Assembly (NCBI GenBank): GCA_027484425.1 | Contig: JAIXSZ010000081.1 | Span: 124,001 to 188,000, forward strand | Length of the DNA: 64,000 nucleotides | Reading direction: 5' to 3' | From: Sphingobacteriales bacterium | GTDB lineage: Bacteria > Bacteroidota > Bacteroidia > Chitinophagales > Chitinophagaceae | Part shown: piece after piece, positions 15,887 through 56,233 of the stretch | How the letters are laid out: every line of letters begins with the position of its first letter | How positions within the stretch are numbered: position 1 is the first letter of the stretch | The notes under the pieces: model-generated | Database searches by the model: none | Seen by the model: the letters and a program-made list of their open reading frames with translations, nothing else | What the model was told of the DNA's origin: nothing | Position numbers and translations under genes: made by a program

Positions 15887-15889
15887 GGT

Positions 15890-16300
15890 ATGACAGGCAT
15901 TAAACGCAAAGTAGTACACGCTACACTGTATGAGCTAATAGCAATTGGTTTAGTATCGTCAATACTCACTTACTTTTTTGATGAGCAGTTGGGGCATACA
16001 GTTGTATTGAGTACTATAGTTTCAGCTATTGCTGTGATATGGAACATTGTATTCAATTATGTGTTTGAGGCATTCGAACGTTGGATAGGCAATACAAGTA
16101 GACCAACTACAATTAGGGTAGCTCATACCATTTTCTTCGAGGTAGGGCTAATAGTATTTTTGGTGCCACTGTTTGCTTATTGGCTACATACATCGCTATT
16201 GACTGCTTTCCTTACAGACCTTGGGCTGATGTCGTTCTTCCTATTATATACCTTCCTTTTCAATATTGCATTCGACCGAATTTTCGGGCTGCCACAATGA
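15890..16300 (+). CDS. PACE-family (BTP repeat) small multidrug efflux protein
   Basis: 136 residues with four hydrophobic helices arranged as two copies of the bacterial transmembrane pair. The first begins RKVVHATLYELIAIGLVS and the second RVAHTIFFEVGLIVFLVP; each carries the conserved H-x(5)-E-like pattern at its start. PACE proteins (AceI type) export chlorhexidine and other compounds, with polyamines proposed as natural substrates. It follows the amidinotransferase gene by 3 bp, which hints at export of a guanidino or amine product (inference). Confidence 0.88.
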   Translation: MTGIKRKVVHATLYELIAIGLVSSILTYFFDEQLGHTVVLSTIVSAIAVIWNIVFNYVFEAFERWIGNTSRPTTIRVAHTIFFEVGLIVFLVPLFAYWLHTSLLTAFLTDLGLMSFFLLYTFLFNIAFDRIFGLPQ

Positions 16301-16408: not shown

Positions 16409-16430
16409 AAGTCGGGATGACTGGACAACT
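16409..16430 (+). other. attL: left recombination site
   Basis: AAGTCGGG (16409-16416) is shared with the tRNA-Pro 3' end on the right and is followed by A and the 13-bp repeat TGACTGGACAACT. Extending the comparison, 16409-16425 matches 56133-56149 at 14 of 17 positions, so the left side looks like a diverged tRNA 3' end. Confidence 0.75.
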
Positions 16431-16558
16431 TTCGAACCATTTCATCAAGGATTTGCTTGCTTTGAATGCACTTTTGGGGATGATTGGGGAAGTATAGGGA
16501 ACAACTGATAAGAACTGGCAGAAACTTGCCGGTACTCGACTGGACAACTTTCGAACCC
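16419..16558 (+). repeat. Two exact 20-bp direct repeats, 120 bp apart, at the left end
   Basis: GACTGGACAACTTTCGAACC occurs at 16419-16438 and again at 16539-16558. The first copy overlaps the terminal inverted repeat. Together with the extra inverted copy at 56096-56107 it suggests accessory recombinase binding sites. Between the copies, 16417-16497 is open in the frame that continues the recombinase gene in the circular form. Confidence 0.7.
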
Positions 16559-16631: not shown

Positions 16632-17306
16632 ATGATTTATGCACTATCTACAAAAAGGGGTTTAGGTTTAGAACTGTGGGGAACCTATGACGATTTATAT
16701 CTTTTATATGAGGTTGTCGGAAACTTTTGGAACGATGAGATTAAAACGAAAGTAAAAGGATTTGAAAATCGGGATGCATTGATTAGTAGCTTTTCGTACG
16801 AAATTAGACATACCTATCAGGGAGATAGGTTAAAAAGCAAAACGAACCATTTAACTTACCAAAGTGGCCAATATTTTGGTTGTAAATTATCCTGGGTACA
16901 CATCTTTTTCTCTTTGGCTGCATTGAAATATAATATGCGATTCAAGGCGGTTTCAAAGCTTGATACAGCAATTTTCTTGCAACTTGAGTATTGGATTGAA
17001 AAATGTCTGTGTTCATTTGACAATTGTGGTGCTGAGTTACTACCATATATCGACAATGCCATTTATTCCGCGAACGAATATATTTACCAATATATGCGAA
17101 CAATAAATGCGGAGTATTTCAAGTTGGGTGGTGGCAAAAATGCATTTAGAAAACTACCACAACTACTCAAGAAATCAGTTTATGGAACTACTGAGTATCT
17201 GGATTATTGGGAATTTCTTAAAAGTGAAGCCAAAAGGTTAGACTGTAAAGTAGATGACCTCGAGATTAATGACGATGATATCGACTATTCAAAAATTGTT
17301 TGGTAA
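16632..17306 (+). CDS. Conserved hypothetical protein, possibly DUF6904-like
   Basis: 224 residues, no signal peptide or membrane segment. The N-terminus (GLELWGTYDDLYLLYEVVG) and the block YEIRHTYQGDR, followed by a CKLSWVHIFFSLAALK stretch, are reminiscent of the small uncharacterised family DUF6904; that assignment is from memory and tentative. It is the first gene of the element, transcribed toward the NurA operon but separated from it by 185 bp with its own promoter-like sequence (TTG 16598-16600). Low G+C and passenger position suggest an accessory, perhaps defence-related, role; no function can be assigned. Confidence 0.6.
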   Translation: MIYALSTKRGLGLELWGTYDDLYLLYEVVGNFWNDEIKTKVKGFENRDALISSFSYEIRHTYQGDRLKSKTNHLTYQSGQYFGCKLSWVHIFFSLAALKYNMRFKAVSKLDTAIFLQLEYWIEKCLCSFDNCGAELLPYIDNAIYSANEYIYQYMRTINAEYFKLGGGKNAFRKLPQLLKKSVYGTTEYLDYWEFLKSEAKRLDCKVDDLEINDDDIDYSKIVW

Positions 17307-17444: not shown

Positions 17445-17473
17445 TTGCATTAAAAAACCGCTTATTATATTTG
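17445..17473 (+). promoter_or_regulatory. Predicted promoter of the NurA-HerA operon
   Basis: TTG at 17445-17447, an 18-bp spacer and a perfect TATATTTG box at 17466-17473 match the Bacteroidota promoter pattern. Transcription would start about 10 nt before the GTG start codon at 17492, giving a very short leader. Confidence 0.65.
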
Positions 17474-17491: not shown

Positions 17492-18658
17492 GTGGATAAA
17501 ATACTACATCTGGTTGCTAATGAAACGAATGGCAAATGTTACACTTCGTTCCGCTATTGTGCGGATGATGAAATACGTATACCTACCCTAGACTTTGATA
17601 CCAAAGGACACGAAATTTCTCTTGTCGTTAAGGAATATGGAGAAACTGACACAACACTCACGTCTTCAAAAAGTCTTAAGCAATTAGCCGATAAAATACT
17701 GCATGATAGCCCACTCTTTCATTTTTTTTTGGATGGCTCTCGGCGAACTTATAAAGTTGACGACATAGAGTTAAATCGAAATGTTTATCCTGTAATAGCA
17801 GGGCAAATTGGAGTTGCTTGTTGCCACAGAAAGTCACCTAGCGAATTCAAATGTGCCGAGTTTGAACATAACCTTGTTATCTCTCTTCCCAAAATCGCAA
17901 ACCCCAATGGTGGAGACGCTTCGCTCTTTTTTAATGCTCTTGCAGCAAAAATCAATAAAACTAAGCGAGTTGAGAAAGCTGAAGCGAAATTCTCAAAAGT
18001 ACTTTCCTATGATTCTAAAAAACAAGATGAAGGAAAGAAATATGAACACTTGGGAATTGCGACTATTCAAGATGAAATGATTGAGACAGAGAAACGGATT
18101 GTTTCCTATCTGAGCACAAAGAATTTAATTAATCCTGATAGATATCTGATTAAAGACGGCTCGTTACAATACAAACCGATGAAAACGGGAGATTTTCGGG
18201 AGCTTACAAAAATTAAAAGTCATTACAAATGTGTAGTGGGAGTATCGAAAATGTTTAATCCTGAACTATGCAGAGATAGGAATGATAAGAGTAATGCCGA
18301 TAAGATAGCTCAATTGCCTCTTTATCACAGAACGCCCGCATATAAATATAAAAGTGAGATTGTTGGAAGTGTTTTTTTTTCTATTTGGTATGTAAGAATA
18401 AGAAGTGCCGAACGTTCGTTTAGTCCATTTTCTGGTGTGCTAAAAATTGAAAAAATTTTGATTTCAGAAGAAGAACATGATAATGGACTTGATAGTCAGG
18501 AAATAGACTTAATTACGGCGAATATTATCAACGAACGAAATCCGGTTTGTTATGGGAATGATCCAAGATGGGCAAATCACTTGTACCCAATATATTTGAC
18601 AGAAAGCTTTATTAAAAGTAAATATTTTAGTGACATAAATTTCTTGAACTTATTCTAA
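17492..18658 (+). CDS. NurA-like nuclease (first gene of candidate system)
   Basis: 388 residues, GTG start. It has the two-Asp architecture of NurA nucleases: HFFLDGSRRTYKV (Asp81) followed by NVYPVIAGQIGVACC, then RYLIKDGSLQYKP (Asp222), VVGVSKMF, and a C-terminal GNDPRWANHLYPIYLTESFI block typical of the family. NurA is a Mn-dependent 5'-3' and single-strand nuclease acting through a hexameric HerA ring. Its stop codon overlaps the ATG of the HerA-like gene (TAATG), as expected for an obligate pair. In bacteria such pairs occur in defence loci; in archaea they resect DNA ends. The NurA call rests on motif recognition at low overall similarity. Confidence 0.75.
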   Translation: MDKILHLVANETNGKCYTSFRYCADDEIRIPTLDFDTKGHEISLVVKEYGETDTTLTSSKSLKQLADKILHDSPLFHFFLDGSRRTYKVDDIELNRNVYPVIAGQIGVACCHRKSPSEFKCAEFEHNLVISLPKIANPNGGDASLFFNALAAKINKTKRVEKAEAKFSKVLSYDSKKQDEGKKYEHLGIATIQDEMIETEKRIVSYLSTKNLINPDRYLIKDGSLQYKPMKTGDFRELTKIKSHYKCVVGVSKMFNPELCRDRNDKSNADKIAQLPLYHRTPAYKYKSEIVGSVFFSIWYVRIRSAERSFSPFSGVLKIEKILISEEEHDNGLDSQEIDLITANIINERNPVCYGNDPRWANHLYPIYLTESFIKSKYFSDINFLNLF

Positions 18659-20316
18659 TGAAGAAAATCGGCAAAATAATAGCGACAGAAAAGGTGCCAA
18701 CAACGGTAGATGAATTTTACTTCTGGACAGATAAGTATTTAGTTATAAAACCATTCGACGTTGTAAAAGTGGAACATGTGAAAGGATCGGTAACTTTCGG
18801 AGTTGTCGAGGAAATTTCACATCTAACAGACGGGGCTAGTTTTCTTGCAGGTTATATTTCGAGTGACTTTGGCGAAGTGGAATCAAAGTCGAACTCTCAT
18901 CGAATTGGGATGAACTATGTGAAGGCAAAAGTTATAGCCAATTCTGAGAACATATATACACCAGTGATCGATGGCTACACTGTGTCACTAGCCAATGAGG
19001 AGGACGTTAAGATGGCATTAGGATTACAAGGAATTAAGCATCCACTGCCCTGTGGCGTTATCGAAATGTACGAGGAGGAAGATCGAATAACTGTTCCGGT
19101 GCATTTCAACTCACACTTTCTGATTGGGCCAGAAGGTGCACATTTGAATATTTCCGGAATCTCCGGGTTGGCTTCAAAGACATCGTATGCGATGTTCTTA
19201 CTAAAGGCAATCCAGGAACAATATCTAATGACAAAATCAGGTGAAAGCGTTGCATTTGTGTTACTTAATGTAAAGGGTCGCGATTTGTTGGCTATCGACG
19301 AGGCAAATGAGGATATCACTGATATAGACCTTAAAATTTATAAGGAGCTCAACATAGATACGAATCCGTTTAAAAATGTCAAATATTATTACCCTTTTTC
19401 TAAAGATATCAAATCTACGACCTACGCAGATGTCGATGATGTTCTTAGTCAGAAACATTTAAAAAAAGCATTTCAGTATAAGTATCTGTTCGAGAATGAC
19501 AAGGATAGTCTAGATCTCCTTTTTTCTAATATTGATGACCCAACACAATCTATGGACTCGATTGTAAATTATATTGTTTCTGGTGAGGGTCACTTTAATG
19601 GGATAACGAATTGGGATGACTTAAAAGAGGAAATTAAACGACATCAAGAAAAAGGAGATACGGGCAAAGACAAAACAATTTCTGTGCTTAGCTGGCGAAA
19701 ATTCTATCGGCTTTTTAAGAAGGCTTTAGACAGGAATTTGTTTTTTGCAAATTCTCTAAAAAAAGATGGATCTGAGGTTCGCCTTCAAGAGTCAATCAAG
19801 CAAATAAAAAAGAATGAAATTCATGTTATTGATATCGCTAAGCTTGATGAAGAAGCTCAAGGGTTTGTTTTTGGAGATGTCATGAGAGCTATATATGATT
19901 TAAAGCTGGGCCAGATTACAGACCGTGAAGAATCTGAAATACCTTCCAAGGTCATAATTTTCATTGACGAATTAAATAAGTATGGGAGTAAAGACGTTCC
20001 CAAAAGTTCACCTATCTTAAGACAATTACTAGACATAACTGAGCGTGGTCGCTCCTTAGGAATTATTCTGTTCGCGGCGGAACAGTTTAAAAGTGATATT
20101 CATGATAGAGTTAAAGGAAACTGCGCAACTCATGCATATGGTAGGACAAACGCCATTGAAGTTTCTAAACCGGATTATCAATTTGTACCGCCAGTATATA
20201 AGTCTATGTTAACTCGATTAAAGCAAGGAGAGTATATTTTACAAAATCCGATTTTTCGATCATTGTTAAATATTAAATTTCCACGCCCACTCTATAAACA
20301 ATTTAAGAATGGATAA
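18658..20316 (+). CDS. HerA-like hexameric DNA translocase ATPase
   Basis: 552 residues. An N-terminal beta-barrel-like (HAS) domain spans about 15-110. The P-loop is NISGISGLASKTS (Lys174, Thr175), a variant GxxGxxxKT form instead of GxxGSGKS. Walker B is KVIIFIDELN (Asp437, Glu438), followed by a TERGRSLGI segment with candidate arginine-finger residues and a C-terminal block (GEYILQNP, LNIKFPRP). HerA rings pump DNA and activate their NurA partner, encoded immediately upstream. It overlaps the next gene by 8 bp. A packaging-ATPase role for the virion-like block of the same element is an alternative to keep in mind. Confidence 0.85.
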   Translation: MKKIGKIIATEKVPTTVDEFYFWTDKYLVIKPFDVVKVEHVKGSVTFGVVEEISHLTDGASFLAGYISSDFGEVESKSNSHRIGMNYVKAKVIANSENIYTPVIDGYTVSLANEEDVKMALGLQGIKHPLPCGVIEMYEEEDRITVPVHFNSHFLIGPEGAHLNISGISGLASKTSYAMFLLKAIQEQYLMTKSGESVAFVLLNVKGRDLLAIDEANEDITDIDLKIYKELNIDTNPFKNVKYYYPFSKDIKSTTYADVDDVLSQKHLKKAFQYKYLFENDKDSLDLLFSNIDDPTQSMDSIVNYIVSGEGHFNGITNWDDLKEEIKRHQEKGDTGKDKTISVLSWRKFYRLFKKALDRNLFFANSLKKDGSEVRLQESIKQIKKNEIHVIDIAKLDEEAQGFVFGDVMRAIYDLKLGQITDREESEIPSKVIIFIDELNKYGSKDVPKSSPILRQLLDITERGRSLGIILFAAEQFKSDIHDRVKGNCATHAYGRTNAIEVSKPDYQFVPPVYKSMLTRLKQGEYILQNPIFRSLLNIKFPRPLYKQFKNG

Positions 20317-21856
20317 TAGTGTAAAAACGATTATCGGTAAAGATGTTATTGAATCGCTTACAATTGGCATGTATGATGATTCAAGATTCATTTATCGTGA
20401 GTATATACAAAATGCGGCAGACCAGATTGATAAAGCTCGACAAGTTGGACTAGTTGATGAAGGCGAGATACACATCTTAATCGATTCTCAGAAAAGAACA
20501 ATTTCAATCGAGGATGACGCAACCGGAATTGAAAGCAACAAGGTGGAGTCGATTCTAAAAAACATCGCACAATCAACCAAGCAGCGTGGAATAAACAAAG
20601 GCTTTAGAGGAATCGGCAGATTAGGGGGACTGGGATATTGTGCTAAGCTTAGATTTGAAACTTCAGCAAAAGGCGAACGAATAAAATCTACAATGGTTTG
20701 GGATGCAAATAAACTCAAAGCAATAATCAACGATAGAAATACTAAAGAAGAGGCATCTGCAGTAATAGACGCAGTAACATCGTATCAAACAGAAAGAGAA
20801 GAAAGCGACAAACATTACTTTAGAGTAACTCTGGAAGGTGTAACAAATAGTGACCTTCTTGATGTAAAAGAGATTAGGACGTACTTATCGATGGTTGCAC
20901 CAGCACCTTATAGCAAATCTTTTGTTTACGCTAAGCGGATATACGATGAGATAAAAAACTCGGATTTGTCATTAGATGAGTACAAGATATTTATCAACAC
21001 TGACCAATTGTTTAAGGGGTATAACTCTTACATATATGAAGGGAGCGATTCTTCCAATAAAAAGAAAATCGGGGAAATAATCGACATTCTCTTTTTCAAA
21101 GAGTATGATAAAAGCAAAAAATTACTTTACTGGGGTTGGTACGGTGTAACCGAGAAAAATCAATCGCTCAATCAGATAAATTTTGCTCGAGGATTTAGGT
21201 TACGTAAAGCGAATATCCAAATTGGCACGGAAGATACCCTGACTAAATTCCATCGAGATAGAAGGTTCCAATTTTATTTCTTTGGGGAAGTACATGCTTT
21301 TCATAATGATCTTATACCGAATGCTAGAAGAGACAATTTTTCGGAAAATGACACTTATTATGAATACGAAACGAAGCTAAAGTCATTTTTTCATACCACA
21401 ATTCATAAACTTTGTTATACTGCTGCAGACGTTAACAGTGCTGTCAAGGCTATACACACGTACAATGAATCTGTGTCACAGTTCAAACAAAAAGAGGAAG
21501 AAGGTTTTGTCGATGGGAGTGAAAAAAAATCTCTTCTTGAAAATCTTGAAAAGAAGAAAGATGAAGCAATTAAAGCGCAGGCTAAATTAGAAAGTATCAG
21601 AAGTAAAACGGTTGAGTCCATAGCACCTACAATCACTAAGATCATCGAAAGAGCCACGTCTAATAGTACTTTGAATATAGATCAGGCTTTTGCACCTGCT
21701 AGTGATAATAAGCCTGTTTTCAGAACAGATAAACTTTCAAAGCTGACTAAAGAACAACGGAAATTTTTAGGGAATATATTCAGTGTTATCAAAAATGTAT
21801 TGCCGAAAGAAACGGCAGAACTGTTGATTATTAAAATTGAAGAGCAGTATATATGA
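20309..21856 (+). CDS. GHKL (Hsp90/MORC-like) ATPase, copy 1
   Basis: 515 residues. The Bergerat ATP-binding fold is at the N-terminus: EYIQNAADQ (Glu31, Asn35), IEDDATGI (Asp70, Gly73) and the glycine-rich lid KGFRGIGRLGGLGYC (97-111). A conserved ARRDNF motif follows near residue 345, then a charged coiled coil (about 395-435) and a C-terminal helical tail. GHKL ATPases dimerise on ATP binding and act as clamps (Hsp90, MutL, MORC, gyrase). A paralogue of the same length is encoded two genes downstream. It overlaps both neighbours. Bacterial Hsp90/MORC-type clamps recur in anti-phage loci, but the role here is inference. Confidence 0.88.
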   Translation: MDNSVKTIIGKDVIESLTIGMYDDSRFIYREYIQNAADQIDKARQVGLVDEGEIHILIDSQKRTISIEDDATGIESNKVESILKNIAQSTKQRGINKGFRGIGRLGGLGYCAKLRFETSAKGERIKSTMVWDANKLKAIINDRNTKEEASAVIDAVTSYQTEREESDKHYFRVTLEGVTNSDLLDVKEIRTYLSMVAPAPYSKSFVYAKRIYDEIKNSDLSLDEYKIFINTDQLFKGYNSYIYEGSDSSNKKKIGEIIDILFFKEYDKSKKLLYWGWYGVTEKNQSLNQINFARGFRLRKANIQIGTEDTLTKFHRDRRFQFYFFGEVHAFHNDLIPNARRDNFSENDTYYEYETKLKSFFHTTIHKLCYTAADVNSAVKAIHTYNESVSQFKQKEEEGFVDGSEKKSLLENLEKKKDEAIKAQAKLESIRSKTVESIAPTITKIIERATSNSTLNIDQAFAPASDNKPVFRTDKLSKLTKEQRKFLGNIFSVIKNVLPKETAELLIIKIEEQYI

Positions 21857-23253
21857 AAATATCAATTCAAAATTTCAAGTCAATAAATTCGTTGTCGGGA
21901 TATGCCATTCAACCGCTGACGATTTTATCGGGAACAAATAGTTCCGGTAAATCTTCATTAATACAGTTTCTGCTATTACTTAAACAAACGATTGAACTAG
22001 ATTCGGCAAAATACCCTCTCTACATGGATGGGGATTTTTTTCCAGTACGCAGGTTTCAAGATATCTTGTCTTCGAACGCCAAAGACAACTGCATCTCGGT
22101 AGAACTTGCATTTGATAGAGATGAGCTTCGGAAATATTCTAAGTACCCAGAAATTGGCATTTATGATGTACTGGATGATCTTGAATTAAGGATAAAGGTA
22201 GAGTTCGTTGAGATAAATAACAGAGTAGCGGTAAGAGTGTTTGAGGTGCGTTTTATTTCAAAAGACGGTAGTTTTAACCAATTCTTGAAAATATCGGATT
22301 ATAACGGGAGCTTAAATATTAATACAAATGTCGCTACTCTAAGCAATTCTGATCTTCTCTCATTACAAGGAACATACAAGATCACAAACGTTAATTACTC
22401 TGGGTTTATTCCTTTTGGCTACGAGATTGACTTGCAAAACGGTAGTACGCCATCAAAGGAACTCCTGAAACTTGACGGCATAAAAGCTATCATAGTTGAC
22501 TTTTTTCACAATTTAAATTATGTTGGTCCGTCAAGGGATGAACCTAGGGAGGAATATCGGTATAATGGGCAAAATTTATCTGTTGGCTCACATGGGGAGT
22601 TTGTTGCAGACACATTAGAAGCCCTTTCACTTACCTCCGTCGTTTTCTTCAAAATTCAGGAATCGGAGGGAACATACCAATTCATCAAGTGTGATGGTAC
22701 ATTTCTAGATGCAGTTAGATATTGGATGTGTGAGAAGTTCCAAATGTGCAAGGATATCTATGCAAAGAAGGTAGCAGACTCAGTTGTCATTTATGTTGTA
22801 AACTTTAATGATATAGAATCATCAATCAGGCATGTAGGATTTGGTATAAGCCAAATATTGCCGATTGTTGTTGAGGGGCTACGAATACAAGTAGGACAAA
22901 CACTAATACTTGAACAACCTGAAATTCATTTGCACCCGAAAGTACAAAGTCAGTGTTTAGATTTCATGCTTTCACTAGTTTACTCAGGTAAGACAATTCT
23001 TGTCGAGACTCATAGTGACCATATCATTACTAGATTAAGAAGGCGCGTTGCAGAAAATACTGAAAACGATCTCAGTAACCTAATTGCGCTCACTTTTGTG
23101 GAGTCAACATCGTCGGATTTATTATATAGAAATATAGGCATCAATGATTTCGGGGGGCTGGACTATTTCCCAGACGAGTTCATTGAAAAGACAGATGTTG
23201 AGTTAAAGGCTATTTTGAAAGCACAAATGAAAAAACGTCTAAATCAGAAGTAA
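21853..23253 (+). CDS. SMC/ABC-type AAA ATPase (OLD/DUF3696-like)
   Basis: 466 residues. It begins MKISIQNFKSI, then Walker A SGTNSSGKSS (Lys33). The C-terminal half holds the signature-like GFGISQILPIV, Walker B LILEQPEIHLHP and the H-loop VETHSDHIITRL, followed by a DUF3696-like tail (GGLDYFPDEFIEK). There is no Toprim nuclease domain, so unlike OLD proteins it likely needs a separate effector; the unknown gene immediately downstream is the obvious candidate. Its ATG overlaps the TGA of GHKL copy 1 (ATGA), indicating translational coupling. Confidence 0.85.
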   Translation: MKISIQNFKSINSLSGYAIQPLTILSGTNSSGKSSLIQFLLLLKQTIELDSAKYPLYMDGDFFPVRRFQDILSSNAKDNCISVELAFDRDELRKYSKYPEIGIYDVLDDLELRIKVEFVEINNRVAVRVFEVRFISKDGSFNQFLKISDYNGSLNINTNVATLSNSDLLSLQGTYKITNVNYSGFIPFGYEIDLQNGSTPSKELLKLDGIKAIIVDFFHNLNYVGPSRDEPREEYRYNGQNLSVGSHGEFVADTLEALSLTSVVFFKIQESEGTYQFIKCDGTFLDAVRYWMCEKFQMCKDIYAKKVADSVVIYVVNFNDIESSIRHVGFGISQILPIVVEGLRIQVGQTLILEQPEIHLHPKVQSQCLDFMLSLVYSGKTILVETHSDHIITRLRRRVAENTENDLSNLIALTFVESTSSDLLYRNIGINDFGGLDYFPDEFIEKTDVELKAILKAQMKKRLNQK

Positions 23254-23254
23254 A

Positions 23255-24070
23255 ATGTTCACTGCAGCCCTTGATATTTCGACATTTATATGGAATCCTC
23301 AAGATTTCGAAAGAAATAAACACCATTACTACGAATTAATTTCGTTATCGCCGACCGTTTTTAGCGAGGTGAAAAAAAATAAGATTCCAATTCTATTGCG
23401 AGGAGAACTATATGAGCTTCTATTAACAGAGTTTCCCTATGTGAGCATAAATGGAATCAATCCAGATTACGGGAGAACAACATTATCTTTCCTCGTGGAT
23501 GTAAACTGGACCATCTATGCGGATGGCGACACCTCACATATGCTAACAAATCCGAATATAATTAAAGCTTATTTTAGTGAAGATATAAAAAGAGAGTCTG
23601 GGAGTCAAATCGTACATTTATTCCAAAATGTGCAACCTGAAATTAAATTTATAACTTATCATTGCTTTTATGAGGGGCAAGATGATTTACTTATCGAGAG
23701 GCGTGATGACAAGGTAAAGATAGAAACCTTAAACTATAGTTCTGAGAAAGAAATTACCACTTTTTTTGACAAACATAAAATAAAATTTAAACACAACCCT
23801 AAACACGACAAATATAAAGCAGGAGGAAAAATATCTCCTTTAAGTTGTTACAACGAGAGAACTGCAGATATTACTTATGCACAGAAATTGTTGGATACTT
23901 CATGTCAAGTTGGAAGTGACTTTTATAACTACGATTCAACAAATGAGGTCTATGTGGTGTTTGTGGACTCAAATGATGGAACATTTCATGGATTTGATTT
24001 ATCGGACGAAGGCGATAATGTCCCTGAAGATGTAAAAAAAACATTTAATAAAAATGGCCGACAATTTTGA
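23255..24070 (+). CDS. Unknown protein, candidate effector of the operon
   Basis: 271 residues; I recognise no family. Visible features are an N-terminal beta/alpha-like segment (FTAALDISTFIW), conserved-looking acidic and aromatic residues, a basic central stretch rich in Lys and His (KHKIKFKHNPKHDKYKAGG) followed by SPLSCYNERTADITYAQKLL, and an acidic C-terminus. The KHNPKHDK segment followed by an invariant-looking C-YNER could be a nuclease-type or nucleic-acid-binding site, but that is speculation. It starts 2 bp after the AAA ATPase stop and overlaps GHKL copy 2 by 17 bp, so it is an integral part of the operon. Confidence 0.7.
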   Translation: MFTAALDISTFIWNPQDFERNKHHYYELISLSPTVFSEVKKNKIPILLRGELYELLLTEFPYVSINGINPDYGRTTLSFLVDVNWTIYADGDTSHMLTNPNIIKAYFSEDIKRESGSQIVHLFQNVQPEIKFITYHCFYEGQDDLLIERRDDKVKIETLNYSSEKEITTFFDKHKIKFKHNPKHDKYKAGGKISPLSCYNERTADITYAQKLLDTSCQVGSDFYNYDSTNEVYVVFVDSNDGTFHGFDLSDEGDNVPEDVKKTFNKNGRQF

Positions 24071-25592
24071 TCCTAAAATAGGTAAAACCGTTTTAGAAAC
24101 ACTTACTGAGGGTATGTATGACGACGGAAGGTTTATTTTCCGCGAATACGTTCAAAATGCAGCCGATCAGATAGACCGAGCAGTTGAGTTGGGGCTTTTA
24201 GCTGATAAAAGTGAAGGGAAGATCAATATTTCCATTGATAAAAGTCTAAGAAAAATTGTTGTATACGATAATGCTACTGGTATAAGTCAGAAAGATGTGC
24301 TTCAGTTTTTAGGCGACGTTGCTAATTCGCAAAAAGATGGAGTAAAGCAAAGAGGATTTAGAGGTATAGGTCGTTTGGGAGGCTTGGGGTATTGCAACAA
24401 ACTAATTTTTGAGACATCTTTTAAGGGTGAAGCGGTATGTAGCAAAATGAGCTTGGATGCTAGGCTCCTAAAAAAGATAATTGAGGACCGGAAGGATACT
24501 AGAGATGCAGCAGGGGCGTTAAGTGTGATAACTTCTATCGAGCGACTACAAGAAGATCCAGATCAGCACTATTTCCGTGTAATTTTGCAAGATGTAACTG
24601 TTGAAAAAGTACTTGACATCACAGGTGTCCGTGACTACCTCTCAATGGTAGCACCTGTGCCCTTTAATAATTCATTTTCCTTTTCAGAAGAAATTAAGTC
24701 ATACTTAAAGAGTAGAAACTTAATTCTCGATGAATATAACGTAGCAATAAACGAGGAAACTCTATTTAAGCGTTACAAAAATACCTTCCAGGAAGATGAT
24801 GAGACAACATCCAGTTTAATCGGTGTTGATTTTTTCGATATATACAATGAAGAGCAAGAGCTACTAGCGCTGTGTTGGTACGGCTACAGAGATAAGTCGA
24901 ACTACCAAATTTCTGAAATTAATCTGGAACGCGGATTAAGAATAAGAACAAAGAATATTACGATAGGAGACGAATTTACATGTAATAGATTTTTTAGTCA
25001 GGCTCGGACAAATCATAGATTTATTGGCGAAATTCATACTCTCAGCGAGAGTTTTATACCTAATGCTCGACGAGACTATTTCAACGAAAATCATACTTGT
25101 CAACAGTTTGAAACAAGCGCACGTACAATAATCACGGAGCAGAATTTAGAAAATAGACTAGCTCAAACGGCTTCTAAGTTGTACAGCCGGTTAAAGGAAA
25201 TCGAAACATATCAAAAATCATATAGCGATTTTGCAACTAAGAAGGGTAACTATGATAGTGCTGCCGGGGAAACTTACCATCTGAACCGACTCCGAGTTTT
25301 GGAAGAAAAGGCAGTAAGAGCAAAAGCTGATATTGAAAAAATTGCCGCAAAATCGACTAACTCCCCTAAAATGCAGACCCTTTATACTAGCATTATCGGA
25401 GCCAAAGATTTAGACTTGGTTCGTCTGACTAGCGACGATCTGCGAGTTAGCAAGTACACTCCTCCTGAGTTCTCGAAGTTGAATGACGAACAAAAAGACG
25501 TAGTTTTGGATATTTTCGATATTTTAGAAGACGAGCTGGACTTTGACACTTCTGAGCTAATAAAGAAAAGAATTGTAGAAAAGTTTAATTAG
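24054..25592 (+). CDS. GHKL (Hsp90/MORC-like) ATPase, copy 2
   Basis: 512 residues, clearly homologous to the product of 20309-21856 along its whole length. Matching motifs are EYVQNAADQ (Glu31, Asn35), VYDNATGI (Asp72) and RGFRGIGRLGGLGYC (100-114), then ARRDYF, a charged coiled coil and a helical tail. Both copies keep all catalytic motifs, so they could form two homodimers or one heterodimeric clamp. It overlaps the unknown gene upstream by 17 bp, and the radical-SAM gene begins at the base after its stop codon. Confidence 0.88.
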   Translation: MADNFDPKIGKTVLETLTEGMYDDGRFIFREYVQNAADQIDRAVELGLLADKSEGKINISIDKSLRKIVVYDNATGISQKDVLQFLGDVANSQKDGVKQRGFRGIGRLGGLGYCNKLIFETSFKGEAVCSKMSLDARLLKKIIEDRKDTRDAAGALSVITSIERLQEDPDQHYFRVILQDVTVEKVLDITGVRDYLSMVAPVPFNNSFSFSEEIKSYLKSRNLILDEYNVAINEETLFKRYKNTFQEDDETTSSLIGVDFFDIYNEEQELLALCWYGYRDKSNYQISEINLERGLRIRTKNITIGDEFTCNRFFSQARTNHRFIGEIHTLSESFIPNARRDYFNENHTCQQFETSARTIITEQNLENRLAQTASKLYSRLKEIETYQKSYSDFATKKGNYDSAAGETYHLNRLRVLEEKAVRAKADIEKIAAKSTNSPKMQTLYTSIIGAKDLDLVRLTSDDLRVSKYTPPEFSKLNDEQKDVVLDIFDILEDELDFDTSELIKKRIVEKFN

Positions 25593-27614
25593 ATGGCTGG
25601 AAAGCGTAGAATATTATTAGTCGAACCCAATTATAAAAACAAGTATCCTCCGATTGGTCTCATGAAAATTGCTACTTATCACCGGATGTTAGGTGATGAT
25701 GTAAAATTCTTCAAAGGGGACATGAAGATGCTAGTAGTGGACGAGCTTTTCGTTAAGTGTAGCAGAAAGCTTTTCAAAATTGATAGCTCCATCAACTGGC
25801 TATTGAAGGCTGATACTATCAAGCAATATATAAGGACAGGTAAGAAAGAATTTATCCTCGCACTTTGTATTGATGATAATAGGTTTGCGCCCCTAATTTT
25901 GCAAGTTCTAAATGAATATACTCGACTTTATAAAAAAGCTGAATACGAGCCGTTTTGGGATCGAATTTACGTAACAACTTTATTTACTTTTTATTGGAAG
26001 ATAACGGTTGAAACTATTCAATTTGCAAAACGCTTGGTGAAGGATCCGAGCCAAATTTTTGTGGGCGGGGTTCTCGCTTCTTTACTTCATAATGAACTTG
26101 AATTAGAGACAGGCATTAAACCACATCAAGGGTTATTGGACAAGCCTGGGCTATTAGATGAGGATAGTGATATTGTCATTGACAACCTACCTTTGGATTA
26201 CTCCATTCTCGACGAAATTGACTATAAATACCCTACCCAAAGTGCCTATTTCACATTTATGACAAAAGGATGCACTAGAAAGTGTGCATTTTGTTCGGTT
26301 CCAATATTGGAACCTACATATAAACCGAAAATTGAGACAAAGGGAAAGTTTGATGAAATAAAAGAACTATATGGAGAACAGCAGCATTTATTGCTTATGG
26401 ACAATAATGTCTTGGCGTCGCCAAACTTTCCGGATATTATCCAAGAGATAAAGGACATGGGGTTCGTCAAAGGAGCGACTTATATTGAACCTAATCAATT
26501 AGACATTGCTGTAAAAAATCTTAGACACCATAAAAATCAACGGGCTTATAAAAGAAAGACATTTGACTTGCTTCATGCTATGCTTAATAGGCTAAAAGGC
26601 GACAATAAGCAATATGCGTATGACGTGTTGGATAAGTATAATTTGCTAACCTATGAAACAACAAATAAAGACAATCTTTTGTCGGCCTACAAAGAGCTAA
26701 AAGATCTAAACGAAAAGTATCGGAATAAAGCTCCCAAAAATCGATATGTAGATTTCAATCAGGGAACAGACGCACGCTATGTTACTGATGAAATAATGAA
26801 ATTGATGAGCGAAATAGCCATTAGACCACTTCGAATTGCATTTGATTACATTGGAATCAGAAAGCAATATGAAAATGCAGTTCGGCTAGCAGCTAAATAT
26901 GGGATAAAAGAGCTATCAAACTACATATTGTATAACTTTAATGATAAACCTGAGGAGCTTTACCATCGTCTTGAAATAAACATTAACTTATGCAAAGAAC
27001 TTGATATAGCCATATTCTCATTTCCAATGAAATATATACCATTGTTTGGGGAGGATGCAAAACACAGGGAATACACAGGTAAACATTGGAACAAAAAATT
27101 TATTAGAGCAATACAATCGGTACTGAATGTTACAAAGGGGATTGTTGCGCCTGCTACGCGAACAGACCGTAGCTCTTTTTTTCATAAGGCATTTGGCAAC
27201 AATATTGAAGAATTTTTTGAAATACTTTACATGCCAGAAACCTATATTGTCTATCGAAGTATATTTGAAAATAATCTCGGCTATACCGCTATATGGCAAA
27301 AGGAATATTATGCAATAAAAAATAGTGGTAATTGGGACGAGGCACGAACTATCATTGAATCTAACAATTTTAATGAAATTGAAGAAAAAACAACAAATAT
27401 CGCGGTTCGCCACTTTTTAAGACACTACCAAATTTTGCGTCACTTGATCCCAAAAGAGACTACAGAGTATCGCTCATTTAAACGACAATATGACAAAATG
27501 ATAAAGTCAGACCAGTTTATTGATCTGACTCTAACATATGATTTTGAAGATGAAATCCCTAAAGAAACAATATCGAAAAAAGTAAAATTAGTCGGTAAAA
27601 GTTCTCGAACTTGA
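25593..27614 (+). CDS. Radical-SAM protein with Rossmann-like (B12-domain-like) N-terminus
   Basis: 673 residues. The N-terminal ~170 residues resemble a cobalamin-binding Rossmann domain (RRILLVEPNYKNKYPPIGLM, then IFVGGVLASLL) but lack the DxHxxG cobalamin motif. The [4Fe-4S] motif is KGCTRKCAFC (Cys227, Cys231, Cys234), followed by a typical radical-SAM barrel (LLMDNNVLASP, FNQGTDARY). The last ~200 residues are helical with no match I recognise. Radical-SAM enzymes generate a 5'-deoxyadenosyl radical for difficult modifications. As the last gene of a NurA-HerA-GHKL operon, with no gap to the previous gene, it probably modifies a protein or nucleic acid for the system. Substrate unknown. 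Confidence 0.85.
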   Translation: MAGKRRILLVEPNYKNKYPPIGLMKIATYHRMLGDDVKFFKGDMKMLVVDELFVKCSRKLFKIDSSINWLLKADTIKQYIRTGKKEFILALCIDDNRFAPLILQVLNEYTRLYKKAEYEPFWDRIYVTTLFTFYWKITVETIQFAKRLVKDPSQIFVGGVLASLLHNELELETGIKPHQGLLDKPGLLDEDSDIVIDNLPLDYSILDEIDYKYPTQSAYFTFMTKGCTRKCAFCSVPILEPTYKPKIETKGKFDEIKELYGEQQHLLLMDNNVLASPNFPDIIQEIKDMGFVKGATYIEPNQLDIAVKNLRHHKNQRAYKRKTFDLLHAMLNRLKGDNKQYAYDVLDKYNLLTYETTNKDNLLSAYKELKDLNEKYRNKAPKNRYVDFNQGTDARYVTDEIMKLMSEIAIRPLRIAFDYIGIRKQYENAVRLAAKYGIKELSNYILYNFNDKPEELYHRLEININLCKELDIAIFSFPMKYIPLFGEDAKHREYTGKHWNKKFIRAIQSVLNVTKGIVAPATRTDRSSFFHKAFGNNIEEFFEILYMPETYIVYRSIFENNLGYTAIWQKEYYAIKNSGNWDEARTIIESNNFNEIEEKTTNIAVRHFLRHYQILRHLIPKETTEYRSFKRQYDKMIKSDQFIDLTLTYDFEDEIPKETISKKVKLVGKSSRT

Positions 27615-27643: not shown

Positions 27644-29110
27644 TTAAAAAATCCGCATTTCCCCACCGGCGTTAAATCGCCCGTATTGCACCGCTTTCCC
27701 CTTTTCCGGCAGCTCAACCACGCTATCTACGTCATGTTGGAATGTATTTGCTCCTCTGAACTTACCCTCTTTAGTGGTTTGGAAGATAAAAACAAAGGAT
27801 TTGTCCGGGTACATAGCCTTTAGCTTGTTCAAATCTTCCGGTTTTAACCCCAAGCGGTTAACACTGTCCAGAAATATGAAATCATAAAAGGTCAGACTTG
27901 CTGGAATGTTAGCTGCAACATAGAGGTTCGGGTGCTTCACTTCTTTATCGTTCAGCTTATCTTGTAGTGTTTTATCCAGCCCTTCTTCCCTTGCAACATA
28001 CAGAACTTTACCGTGGTTACGAGCCAGGTAGCCAGCGAAATCAACGCACAAGTAAGACTTACCCATTTTAGGCTTGCCATACACCATAAGCGAAAAGTTT
28101 GTGGACGGGTCACCGATCAGCTCCAGCCACTTCCCTTTAAACCCAAGCGTGTCAAAGTGCATATTGGCAAAGTCCATGCTATTCATAACGGCTGGTTGTT
28201 CGTAGCTGCCACTTTCTTCATCCCCATCAAATCCATTCAGATTTTGACAGGAGCAACCATTGACAATGCCATGCAAACCATTCAGGGTATTCTTTTCAAT
28301 GGCAAGGGTCTTGATAGCCTTATCCAACAAAAATTGCTCAAGGTTCTTCTTGATCTCGTGCATTTCGACAACATAAGGGTCTCTGTCATTTACCTTGCCC
28401 TGCTGGTAAGCTCTATTGATCTGTCCGAGCAATAGTCTTGCCTTGTCCTTTGTGCCTACCTTTCCGTTTAGGTTGATATACCGCTTGATAAAACCGACCG
28501 AAGGCAATACCTTCTCATCATTGGCAGCCTTTCTTAACGCTTCAAGAGTGTCCGGCTGCAGGGCGATAGTTATCGTTTTACCCATTTCATTATACGCCTG
28601 AATAAGCGTGTCCTGAATGAACTTTATACGCTCCACATGCACGGAGGACTTGCGTATCTTCTTTTCCAAAATAGCTTTTTGCAGGCTGTTGATAAAACGT
28701 AGAATGTCGTCCTTGCTTTTTGCTTTACCGTTGAGGTTGACAAACCTCTTGATGAAGCGTAGTTCTTCAGGTATGCGTTCCACCAAAGATGGCTGGTATA
28801 GGTCAGGCTGCTTAGACCTTGTGGCTGACTTTCGCTGTTTCTTTGGTTCAGCATCCTCCCATTTGTTCGAAGCCTTATTAAAACGGTTTACTTTATGCGT
28901 TGGCTTACCGCTTTTCTTCAGATGGGCAGACAGCTTTTCAAAGTAAGTGTCAATTGTTTTCTTAATTGTTTCGCTGGCGTGGTAGTTATCCCAATGTGCG
29001 CCATTGCCGGTTACTTTCTTCACAAACTCATGCCCCTTGCGTATGGCCTCCGGCATGGTACTGAAATCAACCTGTGCTATTTTATCGTGATAATTCTGAA
29101 CTGTGATCAT
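27644..29110 (-). CDS. RecA-like P-loop ATPase with duplicated FIKR-NLNGK repeats
   Basis: 488 residues. The C-terminal third is a RecA/RadA-like ATPase: Walker A VYGKPKMGKS (Gly345-Ser352), Walker B-like YDFIFLDSVNRLG, and a FIFQTTKEGKFRG segment. The N-terminal part has two related ~55-residue repeats, starting at about residue 119 (FIKRFVNLNGKAKSKD) and 207 (FIKRYINLNGKVGTKD). A four-Cys region is not present. It is the most distal gene of the minus-strand block, 9 bp after the methyltransferase-helicase. Likely roles are replication or recombination of the element, or genome packaging; this is inference. Its stop codon faces the end of the radical-SAM gene 29 bp away. Confidence 0.75.
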   Translation of the reverse strand: MITVQNYHDKIAQVDFSTMPEAIRKGHEFVKKVTGNGAHWDNYHASETIKKTIDTYFEKLSAHLKKSGKPTHKVNRFNKASNKWEDAEPKKQRKSATRSKQPDLYQPSLVERIPEELRFIKRFVNLNGKAKSKDDILRFINSLQKAILEKKIRKSSVHVERIKFIQDTLIQAYNEMGKTITIALQPDTLEALRKAANDEKVLPSVGFIKRYINLNGKVGTKDKARLLLGQINRAYQQGKVNDRDPYVVEMHEIKKNLEQFLLDKAIKTLAIEKNTLNGLHGIVNGCSCQNLNGFDGDEESGSYEQPAVMNSMDFANMHFDTLGFKGKWLELIGDPSTNFSLMVYGKPKMGKSYLCVDFAGYLARNHGKVLYVAREEGLDKTLQDKLNDKEVKHPNLYVAANIPASLTFYDFIFLDSVNRLGLKPEDLNKLKAMYPDKSFVFIFQTTKEGKFRGANTFQHDVDSVVELPEKGKAVQYGRFNAGGEMRIF

Positions 29111-29119
29111 AATTGTGTT

Positions 29120-32100
29120 TTAAGCTGCGAGTAATTCCAATTCCAATGCGAGGGCTTCCGCTTCCAGCTCCAATAAGGAGATGATATTGCTTTCCTCTGT
29201 TACAGGCATATCCGGCATGGCTTCCGGTATGTCAATCTTTCTCCGTGAGCTGTACCTATGAGTTTCAGTTCCGATCTGTCGAAGCTGCGCCGAATTGATA
29301 GTGACCGCACAACTGTGATTTGCTTGCAGTATCTCTACCAGCCTGCTGATATTCCCCTCAGTGACTATCGCATACATTTTGTCCGATGTCTTCTCAAAGT
29401 TGTTGTTCTCCACAACCTCCAGAATTTCCTTGTCCAGGTAGATGTCGCCACCCTTTGCCCTTGACGCGGCAACAATAACCTTGAAGTAACCGCCTTGCCG
29501 GAAAAATGAAATACCGTTGCTGGTGACGATGTGTCCGCCATTGACAAGCGACTTTATCAGGGGTAATGCTTTGATGATCGGTACAACAACCTTGTCCTGC
29601 ACTTCATCCCCCGGATTCCAGTTTTCAGGCATCAGGATGCCTTTTACCGTCCTGCCGTCAATCGTGGTATAACTAACCAGCTTGCCTTTAAAGTCGCTGA
29701 ACGCCTGTAGCAGGTTTCCGGTGATCGTGTGCCGTATCTTCCTGTCCACATGGTTTTGCCGGGTATAATCCTCCCATAGCGTTAGCAAACCTTCCTTATC
29801 CAGCTGTGACACATCTGAGCTTGCCCCTATGATTGCCATTATATCCTGCGAATACGAAGCAGGTATGGACAGGTACTTGCTGCTATTCGCTATCGCAAAC
29901 CGGAGCTTTATCTGGGATGGAGCATACGGATTCTTCTTCTTCCGGTCTATACCATAGCCGATAAAAACGGACGGCACAAGCTCATTACCGGACGAGAAGG
30001 TTTCTATAGGGTATCGAAGGTTCCTGCCCACATAGAAGAACTTGAATATTTTCTCAAGGCTGTACGACCTGCTGTGCGCCTTATTTCTGATGATCTTTAG
30101 TTGTCCCTCCCTTGCTGCTGCCAATTCATTCTCCCTATCCCGTATTGCCTTTTCACGTTCTTGCTCCCCGGCAATCTTCCTGATCTTCTTTTCGCTTGGG
30201 ACATTCTTTATCAGTTCCTCATACTTGGTAATAACGTCCTGCTCCTCTTCAAATAACTTACGCCTGCTTTCATTCTGGTATTCCTCTAACAGTTCCCTTT
30301 GCTGTGTATGCGCATCCTTGTCTTTAAGGCTTTCGTTGAGCAGGTTACTTAGTTCTGCCCGTGTAAACGGCTTTTTCAGCACGTTCGCCCTTATCGTTTC
30401 CAAAATGCTATCCTCACCGAATGCGCTATCTGAACCTTTTCCCATTTTTACGATGCGTGAGTTGATCGTTTCCGCATCAAGGTTCATGGCTTCCACTTCC
30501 AAGTCGTATTCGCCAACCTGCCGGAGATATGCCTCGTAATCGTTGTAACGTTCTGCAACTTCATTGTAAAAGTCCTGCTGCATTTTAGTGGATAGTACCG
30601 CCACACGTCCACTGACCTTATGTGCTGCATCTTCGATAGCTGTCGTATTGCTGTCGCTGTCTGCTTTACTGTCCTCTAACTTCAACGGGTCATCCAGTAA
30701 TCGGTTAATATCCGGGTATTCTAACAGGTACTCCTTAACGATCTTGTCGCCGTACTTGTTCAGGAAGTCTGGCACGTCCAATATTTTGGTGGACTGCTTT
30801 TGGTTTGATGTAGTGTTAGCATCCAGCGACTTTAGTTTCTTCTGCAACATCATCATTAGTCGCTTCTCAGCGGGTATAGCAGATGTTACATAATCGTATA
30901 TCGGCTTTAATATCTGCCCGGTACGATTGATACGTCCTCGCTTCTGCACCTCGGTATTGATGTCCAGCTCTGCCTGCAACACGATCATAACCCTTTGCCT
31001 CACTTCTGTAGCTGGTACTTTAGCCGTTGGTATGGCATGAGCCGAAGCCCCGGTACTGCCGGACTGGTTGATCATCAGCACATCTACCTCGTTATTGTTA
31101 AACTGGCGAAACGCATCATTCGTATTGAGCTTTTTACGGGAGGCTATCAGGGCTTTACTGCCCTTGCCGTTGAATTGCAGCTCATACTTGCGCCCTGTCA
31201 CCTCTGCAACTGAATATCCAGCGTCTTTCAACCGCTTTACAATAACGTCTATTGGCGAAATGGTGATGCCAGTTGCTACAGACTTGATACGTTCGGCAAT
31301 ACGCAGGTATTCCACCTGTGCTTCTGGTGGCAAATCCGATAACTCGAACTTCTTATACACGGAATTTCCGTCAACGTCCTTTTCAGTGTAGCGCAGAATG
31401 CCATCCAGACCACGCTTTAAGACTTCCGAGAAGTCGGCGTTGATAACGTCACCGTCCGAGACGGGTAACCCCTGCTCATTCTCCAGTGTCTCAATGAAAC
31501 TACCCATTGTTGAAGCAAAGGCGATAACAGGCTTTTTACCCTCCTGTAATCGCATAATTGCCCGTTCTGCCACCGCCTCTGCTTTCAGGCTGAACAACAT
31601 CTGGTTGATAACCTGGAATACCTTGGAGAAATACGGCTGATTATCCACACCAGCCTGTGATGTCCCCTCCCGCAACTCAACTTCCTTTCCTTCCGCTACT
31701 GCCACTTTATCTAGCTCATCTACGGCCTCATTGATGAACCTGCCCTGAAACTCGATTATATCCCGCAGCACTTCGGTAATATTATCTGCGATAGCCCTGT
31801 GTTCCTCCGTTTTTTCGTCCAGCGATATGTAGTTTACCTCAACACCCTCAAAGCTGCGCTCACGCCGTAGCATTTGTCCTTCTGCTACCAGTTGTGAGGA
31901 CAACACTTCCTGAAGGGCTACACCTCCTTTCGTAATAGCCTCCACAAGCTCATCCTTGCTCATGTTACAATCCGCTATGGCTGTTTTCATGCCGTAGATG
32001 GGCATGTTATCCGGTCTTTTAGCAAAAGTTGCGGACAAGAACACAACGCCCTTCGTATTGCGCACCACACCCTGTAAAAACTCCCCGGTATTGGAAGAAC

Positions 32101-33790: not shown

Positions 33791-33792
33791 AA

Positions 33793-33972
33793 TTATTGCT
33801 GTTTTAATGCCGCCTTTGCAGCTCTCCTGTGCTTCCTGTTCCTTCTGCTGCCATAAATGACCAGCCTGACTATCTGTGCCGCCTTTTTGGGGTCTTTAGC
33901 CACCCGTATCAGTACCCATCGGTACAGTGCGAACAGTTCCTTCAGGCTGGTGATGATTACTATTGTTTCCAT
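33793..33972 (-). CDS. Small basic protein with hydrophobic N-terminus
   Basis: 59 residues encoded exactly between the helicase gene (2 bp away) and the spike-like gene (3 bp away). It begins METIVIITSLKELFALYRW and ends in a very basic stretch (SRRNRKHRRAAKAALKQQ). The tight fit in the operon and strand agreement support it as a real gene. It could be a small membrane- or nucleic-acid-associated protein; no family recognised. Confidence 0.6.
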   Translation of the reverse strand: METIVIITSLKELFALYRWVLIRVAKDPKKAAQIVRLVIYGSRRNRKHRRAAKAALKQQ

Positions 33973-33975
33973 TGC

Positions 33976-35250: not shown

Positions 35251-35423
35251 TAGTTCTTTTCTTTTTTCTGTAACTGCTCAACAATCTGCTCCCCGATAAG
35301 TGACCCGACAAAACCACCTAACATGACCATCGGGCCTGTATCCTTTTCGGTGGTCTTGGCGTACCAATAGGCAAGGAGTGATGTAACCAGTGTGGCTGCT
35401 GAAATAATAGTTTTGTCTTTCAT
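35250..35423 (-). CDS. Small membrane protein
   Basis: 57 residues from ATG at 35423 (MKDKTIISAATL), chosen over an upstream in-frame start that would add 18 unlikely residues. Two hydrophobic stretches (IISAATLVTSLLAYWYA and VMLGGFVGSLIGEQIV) and a basic/acidic C-terminus (QLQKKEKN). Its stop overlaps the start of the spike-like gene (TAATG). Size and topology would suit a holin or small virion-membrane protein; not provable here. Confidence 0.6.
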   Translation of the reverse strand: MKDKTIISAATLVTSLLAYWYAKTTEKDTGPMVMLGGFVGSLIGEQIVEQLQKKEKN

Positions 35424-35425
35424 GT

Positions 35426-36085: not shown

Positions 36086-36136
36086 TGTTGTTTGATTTTT
36101 ATTAGAGATAGAAAATGATAGGGTTTACAGGCTGCG

Positions 36137-36364: not shown

Positions 36365-36461
36365 TTGCTTCCTGTTCGTTTAGATGTTGAATGATCTGGT
36401 AAGTGGTCAGCCCGATAATGGCTGCTATCAGTATACCTATTGTCGCGTATATCCTTTCTTT
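36336..36461 (-). other. In-frame membrane-helix reading frame after a TGA stop
   Basis: The 98-bp gap between the holin-like and L,D-transpeptidase-like genes is open in the frame of the latter, directly after its TGA. It encodes KERIYATIGILIAAIIGL then TTYQIIQHLNEQE and ends at 36336, overlapping the holin-like ATG. It is clearly a transmembrane-type sequence but has no ATG, GTG or TTG start. Possible explanations: TGA read-through, a point mutation or sequencing error in a longer gene, or a non-standard start. Confidence 0.4.
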
Positions 36462-37052: not shown

Positions 37053-37077
37053 GCTTGTCTTTTTTTAATGACGGAGG

Positions 37078-38181: not shown

Positions 38182-38184
38182 CGT

Positions 38185-54565: not shown

Positions 54566-54569
<4 letters not shown>
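54267..54569 (+). CDS. Small acidic helical protein next to the recombinase
   Basis: 100 residues, coupled by ATGA overlap to the serine recombinase gene. The conserved-looking core is MTIEELRTFPNCAHYTDEQA followed by DNIVRTLDKLATIIFDYTCQ; the first ~35 residues are less typical, so a later start (such as the ATG at 54324) is possible. No family name recognised. A truncated copy of its 5' region occurs at 46005-46059. Confidence 0.6.

Positions 54570-56233
<1,664 letters not shown>

Follow-up and report, generated by a model that had tools for sequence, protein, structure and literature searches.

TdpAB (PDB 8wfd) is reportedly a HerA/NurA-like antiphage nuclease linked to phosphorothioate, and it is one of several described systems to be compared with the locus considered here. 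In the accessible parts of two papers HerA and NurA are described as an end-resection complex (PMC9960219; PMC12977600), and a legend to a figure of putative auxiliary genes of CRISPR (clustered regularly interspaced short palindromic repeats) names both (PMC10910872, accessible in part); Menshen includes a DUF262 protein (PMC10952713, likewise accessible in part). The locus is a run of seven plus-strand open reading frames (ORFs) at 17492-27614 of a 64,000-nucleotide stretch of contig JAIXSZ010000081.1 from a Sphingobacteriales bacterium (GCA_027484425.1), called the window throughout; it encodes a NurA-type nuclease, a HerA-type ATPase, two GHKL ATPases flanking an NsnB-NsnC-like pair, and a radical S-adenosylmethionine (radical-SAM) enzyme (Table 1). 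Judged from its sequence, this operon probably acts against invading DNA as a system not yet described, a HerA-nuclease defence variant whose cassette is known in part.

The gene set corresponds to no named system in PADLOC, Pfam or NCBIfam, and it is not described in the accessible parts of PMC10853773, PMC10952713, PMC13092281, PMC4158269, PMC5379612, PMC11291478, PMC9960219, PMC12904381, PMC12977600, PMC10910872, PMC8175902 or PMC9723712. Among open-licence papers none was found that joins four of HerA, NurA, GHKL, radical SAM and defense; a subscription paper, a supplement or a preprint could do so. An earlier reading of the window (the original prediction) had taken the combination for one not recognised as published, and within these databases and this literature it stands.

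Frame and cassette in related loci

By comparison with its relatives, the operon has a fixed frame, NurA-HerA-GHKL-radical SAM, and an exchangeable cassette between the first GHKL gene (GHKLa) and the radical-SAM gene. A pattern scan based on the radical-SAM alignment returned 393 relatives from 84,980 species genomes, and the 80 loci most like the window's enzyme were analysed. In 59 of them the sequence upstream of the radical-SAM gene extends for 8 kb or more; of these, 53 carry NurA, HerA and GHKL, five carry GHKL without HerA, and one carries neither; in all 53 the labelled genes lie on one strand, with 188 of 191 junctions at or below 30 bp. The lineages represented include Bacteroidota, Bacillota, Deferribacterota, Lentisphaerota, Thermodesulfobacteriota, Ignavibacteriota, Acidobacteriota and Melainabacteria, with one Woesearchaeota bin. 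Two radical-SAM rows (L046 and L047) are identical and could stem from a single sequence that was binned twice, and L127 and L128 are not independent of L023 and L034, with which they apparently share their contigs.

In the window itself the junctions recompute to -1, -8, -4, +1, -17 and 0 bp, and both gaps and coordinates match those predicted for seven tightly spaced plus-strand genes; the GTG start of gene 1 at 17492 gives an N-terminus that matches the starts of homologues in the alignment. Since the same gene set is conserved in other genomes, the operon is not a chance arrangement, and a survey of neighbourhoods bears out that the homologues co-occur (53 of the 59 loci). The further proposal that the seven genes form one machine survives in part: the genes do co-occur across genomes, but only four make up the frame, and genes 4 to 6 are exchanged or missing in most relatives.

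Three states of the cassette are found, counted over all rows in which it is visible, including some with an incomplete upstream side. It is empty in 48 rows labelled core4 (among them L022, which shows two GHKL ORFs), consists of a second GHKL gene (GHKLb) and a gene for a protein of ~330 residues in 15, and holds NsnB-NsnC, mostly with GHKLb, in ten rows and the window. In most loci with a cassette, GHKLb of the gene 6 type stands beside NsnB-NsnC or the ~330-residue gene; in L062 and L100 NsnB-NsnC is joined by a single GHKL, and three ~330-residue rows (L043, L044, L048) show a convergent gene order without NurA-HerA. The profile of the ~330-residue protein (A6) has no PDB match up to E 10, and one member gave a weak Pfam match (0.03) and no PADLOC match.

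In a quick radical-SAM tree of 82 rows, which leaves out nine loci labelled partial and L012 with its short radical-SAM sequence, the NsnBC label requires nine changes for 11 rows (at least seven of them forced by starred branches), the ~330-residue label 12 for 15 rows (at least nine so forced), and the label for DGQHR, a plasmid gene described below, one; the window's five nearest relatives span all three cassette states. When the window is compared with nine of its ten NsnBC relatives, the least conserved proteins are NsnC (27-45% identity) and the AAA ATPase (39-57%); the radical-SAM enzyme reaches 52-75%, and HerA and NurA, both present in six of the nine, reach 63-86% and 50-80%. Among 296 evenly sampled genomes of the phylum, the window's own included (cut-offs 1e-30 for radical SAM and HerA, 1e-5 for NsnC), the radical-SAM gene occurs in five, HerA of the operon's type in four and NsnC of its type in three, as nested sets, and the operon is thus rare and patchy, yet linked. 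One of the five radical-SAM copies (L130) is broken, a fragment with two in-frame stops.

In 12 of the 80 loci, all in Bacteroidota, a large protein of 485-1105 residues is encoded after the radical-SAM gene (L060, L064, L066, L070-L073, L076, L079, L080, L082, L085); the one scanned has weak Pfam matches only, to an RNA-polymerase alpha C-terminal domain and a sigma-like family.

Table 1. Coordinates of the operon and of associated features in the window.
Feature	Position	Strand	Basis
Gene 1, NurA-type nuclease, 388 aa, GTG start	17492..18658	+	fold
Gene 2, HerA-type DNA-translocating ATPase, 552 aa	18658..20316	+	profile against PDB, catalytic motifs
Gene 3, GHKL (HSP90-like) ATPase a, 515 aa, fixed frame	20309..21856	+	Pfam, profile against HtpG/Hsp90
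Gene 4, OLD/SMC-type AAA ATPase, NsnB-related, 466 aa, cassette	21853..23253	+	PADLOC
Gene 5, NsnC-like protein, 271 aa, cassette	23255..24070	+	PADLOC
Gene 6, GHKL ATPase b, 512 aa, cassette	24054..25592	+	Pfam
Gene 7, radical-SAM enzyme, N-terminal B12-binding-like region, 673 aa, fixed frame	25593..27614	+	motifs, Pfam, phrog
Possible Bacteroidota-type promoter TTG-N18-TATATTTG (weak)	17445..17473	+	loose pattern match
Probable left element end, doubled 20-nt repeat	16410..16556		direct repeat at 16419 and 16538
Large serine recombinase, reaches into tRNA-Pro 56135-56209(-)	54566..56233	+	Pfam Resolvase 4.2e-24, Recombinase 7.7e-12

The prediction of a single good promoter for the operon is weak: a sigma-70 scan finds no site directly before 17492, its total over the window being near chance (49 found vs 38.9 +/- 7.7 in shuffles), and the loose TTG-N18-TATATTTG pattern, which follows the Bacteroidota promoter consensus, has eight plus-strand matches within the window.

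The encoded proteins

Gene 1 is a NurA nuclease by its RNase-H-like fold; it adjoins the HerA gene in the window, and in each of the 53 relative loci the two share a strand. Its family alignment contains an invariant D81 (in FLDGSR) and K253 (in VGVSK), which are candidate catalytic residues; those given for drNurA are D53, K201 and R309 (PMC9960219, accessible in part). The HerA family profile matches D. radiodurans HerA (7f6d_B) at 3.5e-48, and the Walker A residues K174/T175 and Walker B residues D437/E438 of gene 2 align with K175/T176 and D487/E488 of drHerA, numbered as in the accessible part of the same paper; the KTS and DELNK motifs are present in 61 of 61 cases.

Both GHKL proteins match Pfam HATPase_c_3 (gene 3 at 2e-9, gene 6 at 4.7e-9), and gene 3 has REYIQN and GFRGIGRL motifs and a family profile that matches HtpG/Hsp90 structures at 3.4e-12. 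The predicted identities of NurA-HerA, the two GHKL proteins and the radical-SAM enzyme are borne out, and these proteins travel together across phyla; the terms "clamps" for the GHKL proteins and "sensor-type" for the gene 4 ATPase are guesses. What calls for correction is the description of gene 4 as an ATPase with a partner that could not be placed: genes 4 and 5 are relatives of NsnB and NsnC of Menshen. Gene 4 matches PADLOC NsnB over its full length at 4.9e-65, HEC-03B at 3.6e-52 and PDC-M55A at 3.9e-40 (among the best 25 of 98 families), and it carries Walker A and LEQPE motifs. Gene 5 matches PADLOC NsnC at 4.3e-11 over residues 145-267 only, in its C-terminal half, and its reading as an undescribed protein was rejected on this ground. 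The N-terminal part of gene 5 is PIN-like and the C-terminal part resembles a contact-dependent inhibition (CDI) toxin domain, both weakly; in a Foldseek search of the NsnC fold every row lies above 0.001. A complete Menshen system was rejected as well, as the operon has no DUF262 gene.

The radical-SAM enzyme of gene 7 is, on its motifs, intact and belongs to a family of its own. It carries CTRKCAFC, the CxxxCxxC signature being present in 89 of 90 relatives and DFNQG in 90 of 90; L022 has a radical-SAM row without CxxxCxxC. The protein matches phrog_9298 at 2.1e-38 and Pfam Radical_SAM at 7e-6 (26.7 bits, slightly under the cut-off of 29.5), its nearest PDB profile matches are RimO-type cores (5e-4) and MiaB (0.03), and its N-terminus reads as resembling a B12-binding region. 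Identification as a methylthiotransferase was rejected, the three cysteines of CxxxCxxC being the sole invariant ones in an 11-row alignment, as was membership in a house-keeping gene set of the genus: of 99 relatives, nine match the enzyme at E 1e-3, and eight of these nine (the window's own genome being excluded) do so weakly, through generic radical-SAM proteins, with a best value of 2.6e-5.

Mobile settings

The operon is probably the left-hand cargo of a ~40 kb element that would extend from 16.4 kb to tRNA-Pro at 56.1 kb. The cargo is lower in G+C and lies beside a block of ~0.50; the block at 27644-46859 is mostly on the minus strand, higher in G+C and of different make-up. A second copy of the window's 16410-16556 is found in the relative G017, where it lies 2.4 kb past tRNA-Pro. 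A search for the empty site found the left flank (14783-16300) in the window's own genome only (1 of 35) and the right flank with dnaA in 33 of 35, and gave no clean empty site; Rfam at gathering scores reports two tRNAs only. The predicted location inside a mobile element is thus supported by the contrast in G+C, the serine recombinase at tRNA-Pro and the repeat in G017, and lacks an empty site. Also within the probable element, a DUF6904 gene (16632-17306, 1.1e-36) stands immediately upstream of the operon, and the stretch 47347-53990 forms a second cargo block, with GmrSD/DUF262 genes at 47347-49137 and 49144-51318, a gene with a weak SWIM match only (51338-52879) and a helix-turn-helix-ImmA/IrrE gene (52896-53990; PADLOC RmrA, 2.6e-57).

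On alphaproteobacterial plasmids, 12 records carry the radical-SAM gene and the same 12 an operon-type GHKL gene, several of them being repeats of one plasmid. The order DGQHR gene, radical SAM, GHKL recurs in all seven records examined, with a PIN-like and GHKL pair nearby in six; the one DGQHR protein tested matches Pfam DndB at 3.4e-8 and PADLOC DpdB at 7e-11. Distant HerA relatives on three plasmids examined adjoin SbcCD-type genes. On one Mesorhizobium plasmid (L015:25312-28901), ~5 kb past the PIN-GHKL pair, there are patatin-like, DncV-like nucleotidyltransferase and ThiF annotations of the cyclic-oligonucleotide-based anti-phage signalling system (CBASS) type.

Among viruses, Marinitoga camini virus 1 (L131:7899-11725) encodes radical-SAM (3.5e-63; phrog_9298 at 4e-116), HerA (9.5e-98) and NurA (9.6e-31) relatives 2.4 kb from its resolvase gene, and an uncultured gut phage contig has all of radical SAM, HerA, NurA and GHKL. 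A HerA scan of viral contigs returned five loci, four of them NurA-HerA-GHKL-radical SAM; the fifth (L140:9896-14125) has a divergent NurA-HerA pair (35% identity), followed by a gene with a weak methylase-like DPFVGAGTT motif, whose best PDB match is a modification methylase (0.0084). The corresponding radical-SAM scan returned 54 loci. In 40 of these (L153-L192), the family profile finds the enzyme in 34, mostly at ~300 residues, and HerA, NurA and GHKL are absent from the neighbours listed; two of the ~300-residue proteins, when aligned, both show DNN and DFNQG signatures. In two contigs (L013:8306-12609 and L152:8342-12591), an enzyme of the same family is encoded directly behind type IV Cas7 (5e-79 and 2.3e-89) and Cas5 (3e-38 and 2e-35) and is followed by a protein of 411 or 415 residues; L152 also has a three-copy CRISPR-like array at 20136-20329, with a repeat of ~37 nt and a spacing of 71-73. 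A guided radical-SAM variant of type IV is possible at these two loci.

Proposed function and comparison with described systems

We read the operon as a mobile, modular restriction-type defence against invading DNA, with radical-SAM chemistry on nucleic acid, and give this reading a probability of about 0.5. In the mechanism proposed, HerA would form a DNA-pumping ring and feed duplex DNA to NurA for degradation, and the MutL/HSP90-like GHKL ATPase or ATPases would close on a partner or on DNA and gate NurA. The radical-SAM enzyme would carry out covalent chemistry on nucleic acid, most likely a self mark on DNA, NurA-HerA attacking unmarked DNA only; the NsnB-NsnC-GHKLb cassette would be a second sensing or killing arm, swapped between lineages when phages escape. 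The parts of this reading differ in strength. That the operon serves defence is likely, and that the enzyme acts on nucleic acid is slightly favoured; that its product is a self mark seems plausible, if short of an even chance. The fullest form, in which the enzyme writes a new DNA mark, GHKL-gated NurA-HerA destroys DNA without it, and type IV Cas7 and Cas5 aim the same enzyme family in viral contigs, is put forward more tentatively still.

Defence is favoured because the operon is conserved across phyla while patchy and nested in its occurrence, because its cassette is swapped and NsnC and the AAA ATPase diverge fast, because it occurs in mobile settings (the tRNA-Pro element, the phage, the gut phage contig and the 12 plasmid records), and because NsnB-NsnC are similar to components of Menshen, a known defence system. 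The NurA fold and the catalytic motifs of HerA further favour a restriction-type system, as does, weakly, the methylase-like neighbour in L140. A self mark, in turn, is favoured by the partners of the enzyme, a DndB/DpdB-like gene on plasmids and Cas proteins of the guide-RNA type in two viral contigs, and by the precedent of TdpAB, in which a DNA mark reportedly governs a HerA/NurA-like nuclease. The same core could instead be a module with which mobile elements repair DNA or support replication, as would fit the end-resection role given for HerA-NurA (PMC9960219; PMC12977600, accessible in part) and the SbcCD-type neighbours of distant HerA relatives on plasmids; with the enzyme in five of 296 genomes of the phylum, and with an exchanged, defence-related cassette and fast-diverging NsnC and AAA proteins, which are not expected of repair genes, this is improbable.

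Several observations weigh against restriction-type defence as read here. Choosing the best 80 loci by likeness to the window's radical-SAM enzyme favours the same arrangement, and many loci are metagenome bins, in which an isolated unexpected host name may reflect misbinning. Six of the 59 loci have the enzyme without NurA-HerA (L037, L043, L044, L048, L084, L089), and on plasmids the 12 records that carry it do not overlap with the six that have a HerA match, so that the enzyme and NurA-HerA can occur apart. Marinitoga camini virus 1 has no GHKL by profile, and L140 has NurA-HerA without the enzyme. The tree is quick and without bootstrap, and the cassette labels lie near shuffled ones, as few changes arising in 45 of 500 shuffles for NsnBC and in 39 of 500 for the ~330-residue protein; GHKLb (47-67% identity) evolves no faster than GHKLa (44-73%). 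The two nearest complete ORFs of at least 180 residues per locus numbered 136, of which eight were dropped by choice and five large ones omitted; the 123 scanned (PADLOC at 1e-15, Pfam at 1e-6) place PDC-S01, SoFic, HNH, Cas3 and AbiEii in the best 25 of 140 PADLOC families, in a survey without a control and from which no enrichment is claimed.

The nearest solved relatives of the enzyme also count here: RimO and MiaB modify a ribosomal protein and tRNA, so that its target could be RNA or protein. Within the same defence role, it might accordingly modify a protein (NurA, GHKL or a phage protein, for example) or make an antiviral small molecule, with recognition residing in GHKL and the cassette; the cassette is indeed the part that is exchanged, and the loci with the enzyme and no NurA-HerA would agree. 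The DndB/DpdB-like partner on plasmids and the type IV Cas partners point to nucleic acid instead, and we consider this version rather unlikely. It is hardly probable, too, that the operon is two independent neighbours, a four-gene NurA-HerA-GHKL-radical SAM unit into which a separate NsnB-NsnC-GHKL system has landed: the four-gene form does stand alone in the 48 core4 rows, and L037 has NsnB-NsnC-GHKLb-radical SAM with no NurA-HerA nearby, but in the mapped loci NsnB-NsnC lies upstream of the radical-SAM gene in the same run, with near-zero junctions, and in the 296 genomes NsnC never occurs without the enzyme and HerA (three of three, own genome included).

If restriction-type defence with a radical-SAM enzyme is correct, the operon would represent a widespread unnamed HerA-nuclease system, to judge from the 393 relatives of its enzyme, and possibly the first immune system in which a radical-SAM enzyme other than viperin provides the self mark or the effector chemistry. 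Its exchangeable cassette offers a direct route to asking what each module senses. With members of the family encoded beside Cas genes of type IV, the radical enzyme may be a guided one, which would imply that a nucleic-acid-directed radical enzyme is used by several immune architectures.

Compared with Menshen, gene 4 matches NsnB end to end and gene 5 the C-terminal half of NsnC, but there is no gene of the DUF262 (NsnA) type, and NsnB-NsnC are embedded with GHKL, radical SAM, NurA and HerA; GmrSD_N/DUF262 is matched in Pfam by none of the seven proteins, the two DUF262 genes of the element lying 20 kb off in another gene group. With Tdp (TdpA-TdpB-TdpC) the operon shares a NurA-like nuclease subunit, whereas its modification slot would be held by the radical-SAM enzyme and GHKL; the HerA profile finds no TdpA in the PDB up to E 1. 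None of the seven proteins matches Sir2 or DUF4297 in Pfam. HerA-Sir2 and HerA-DUF4297 resemble the operon in coupling a HerA-type ATPase to another enzyme for anti-phage defence (PMC11291478; PMC12977600, accessible in part); here the partner is NurA by fold, together with GHKL and radical SAM. Of the Dnd and Dpd systems, no family at all appears in the Pfam or NCBIfam matches of the seven proteins, and the core genes (DndCDE, DpdA) are absent from the listed PADLOC matches too; the likeness is that a DndB/DpdB-like gene precedes the same radical-SAM and GHKL genes on alphaproteobacterial plasmids. The HerA-NurA complexes of D. radiodurans (7f6d), S. solfataricus and T. kodakarensis are matched by a HerA-type ATPase with catalytic Walker residues and an adjoining NurA fold, both present in the operon; its HerA-NurA has GHKL and radical SAM for partners, whereas the three distant HerA relatives on plasmids adjoin SbcCD-type genes.

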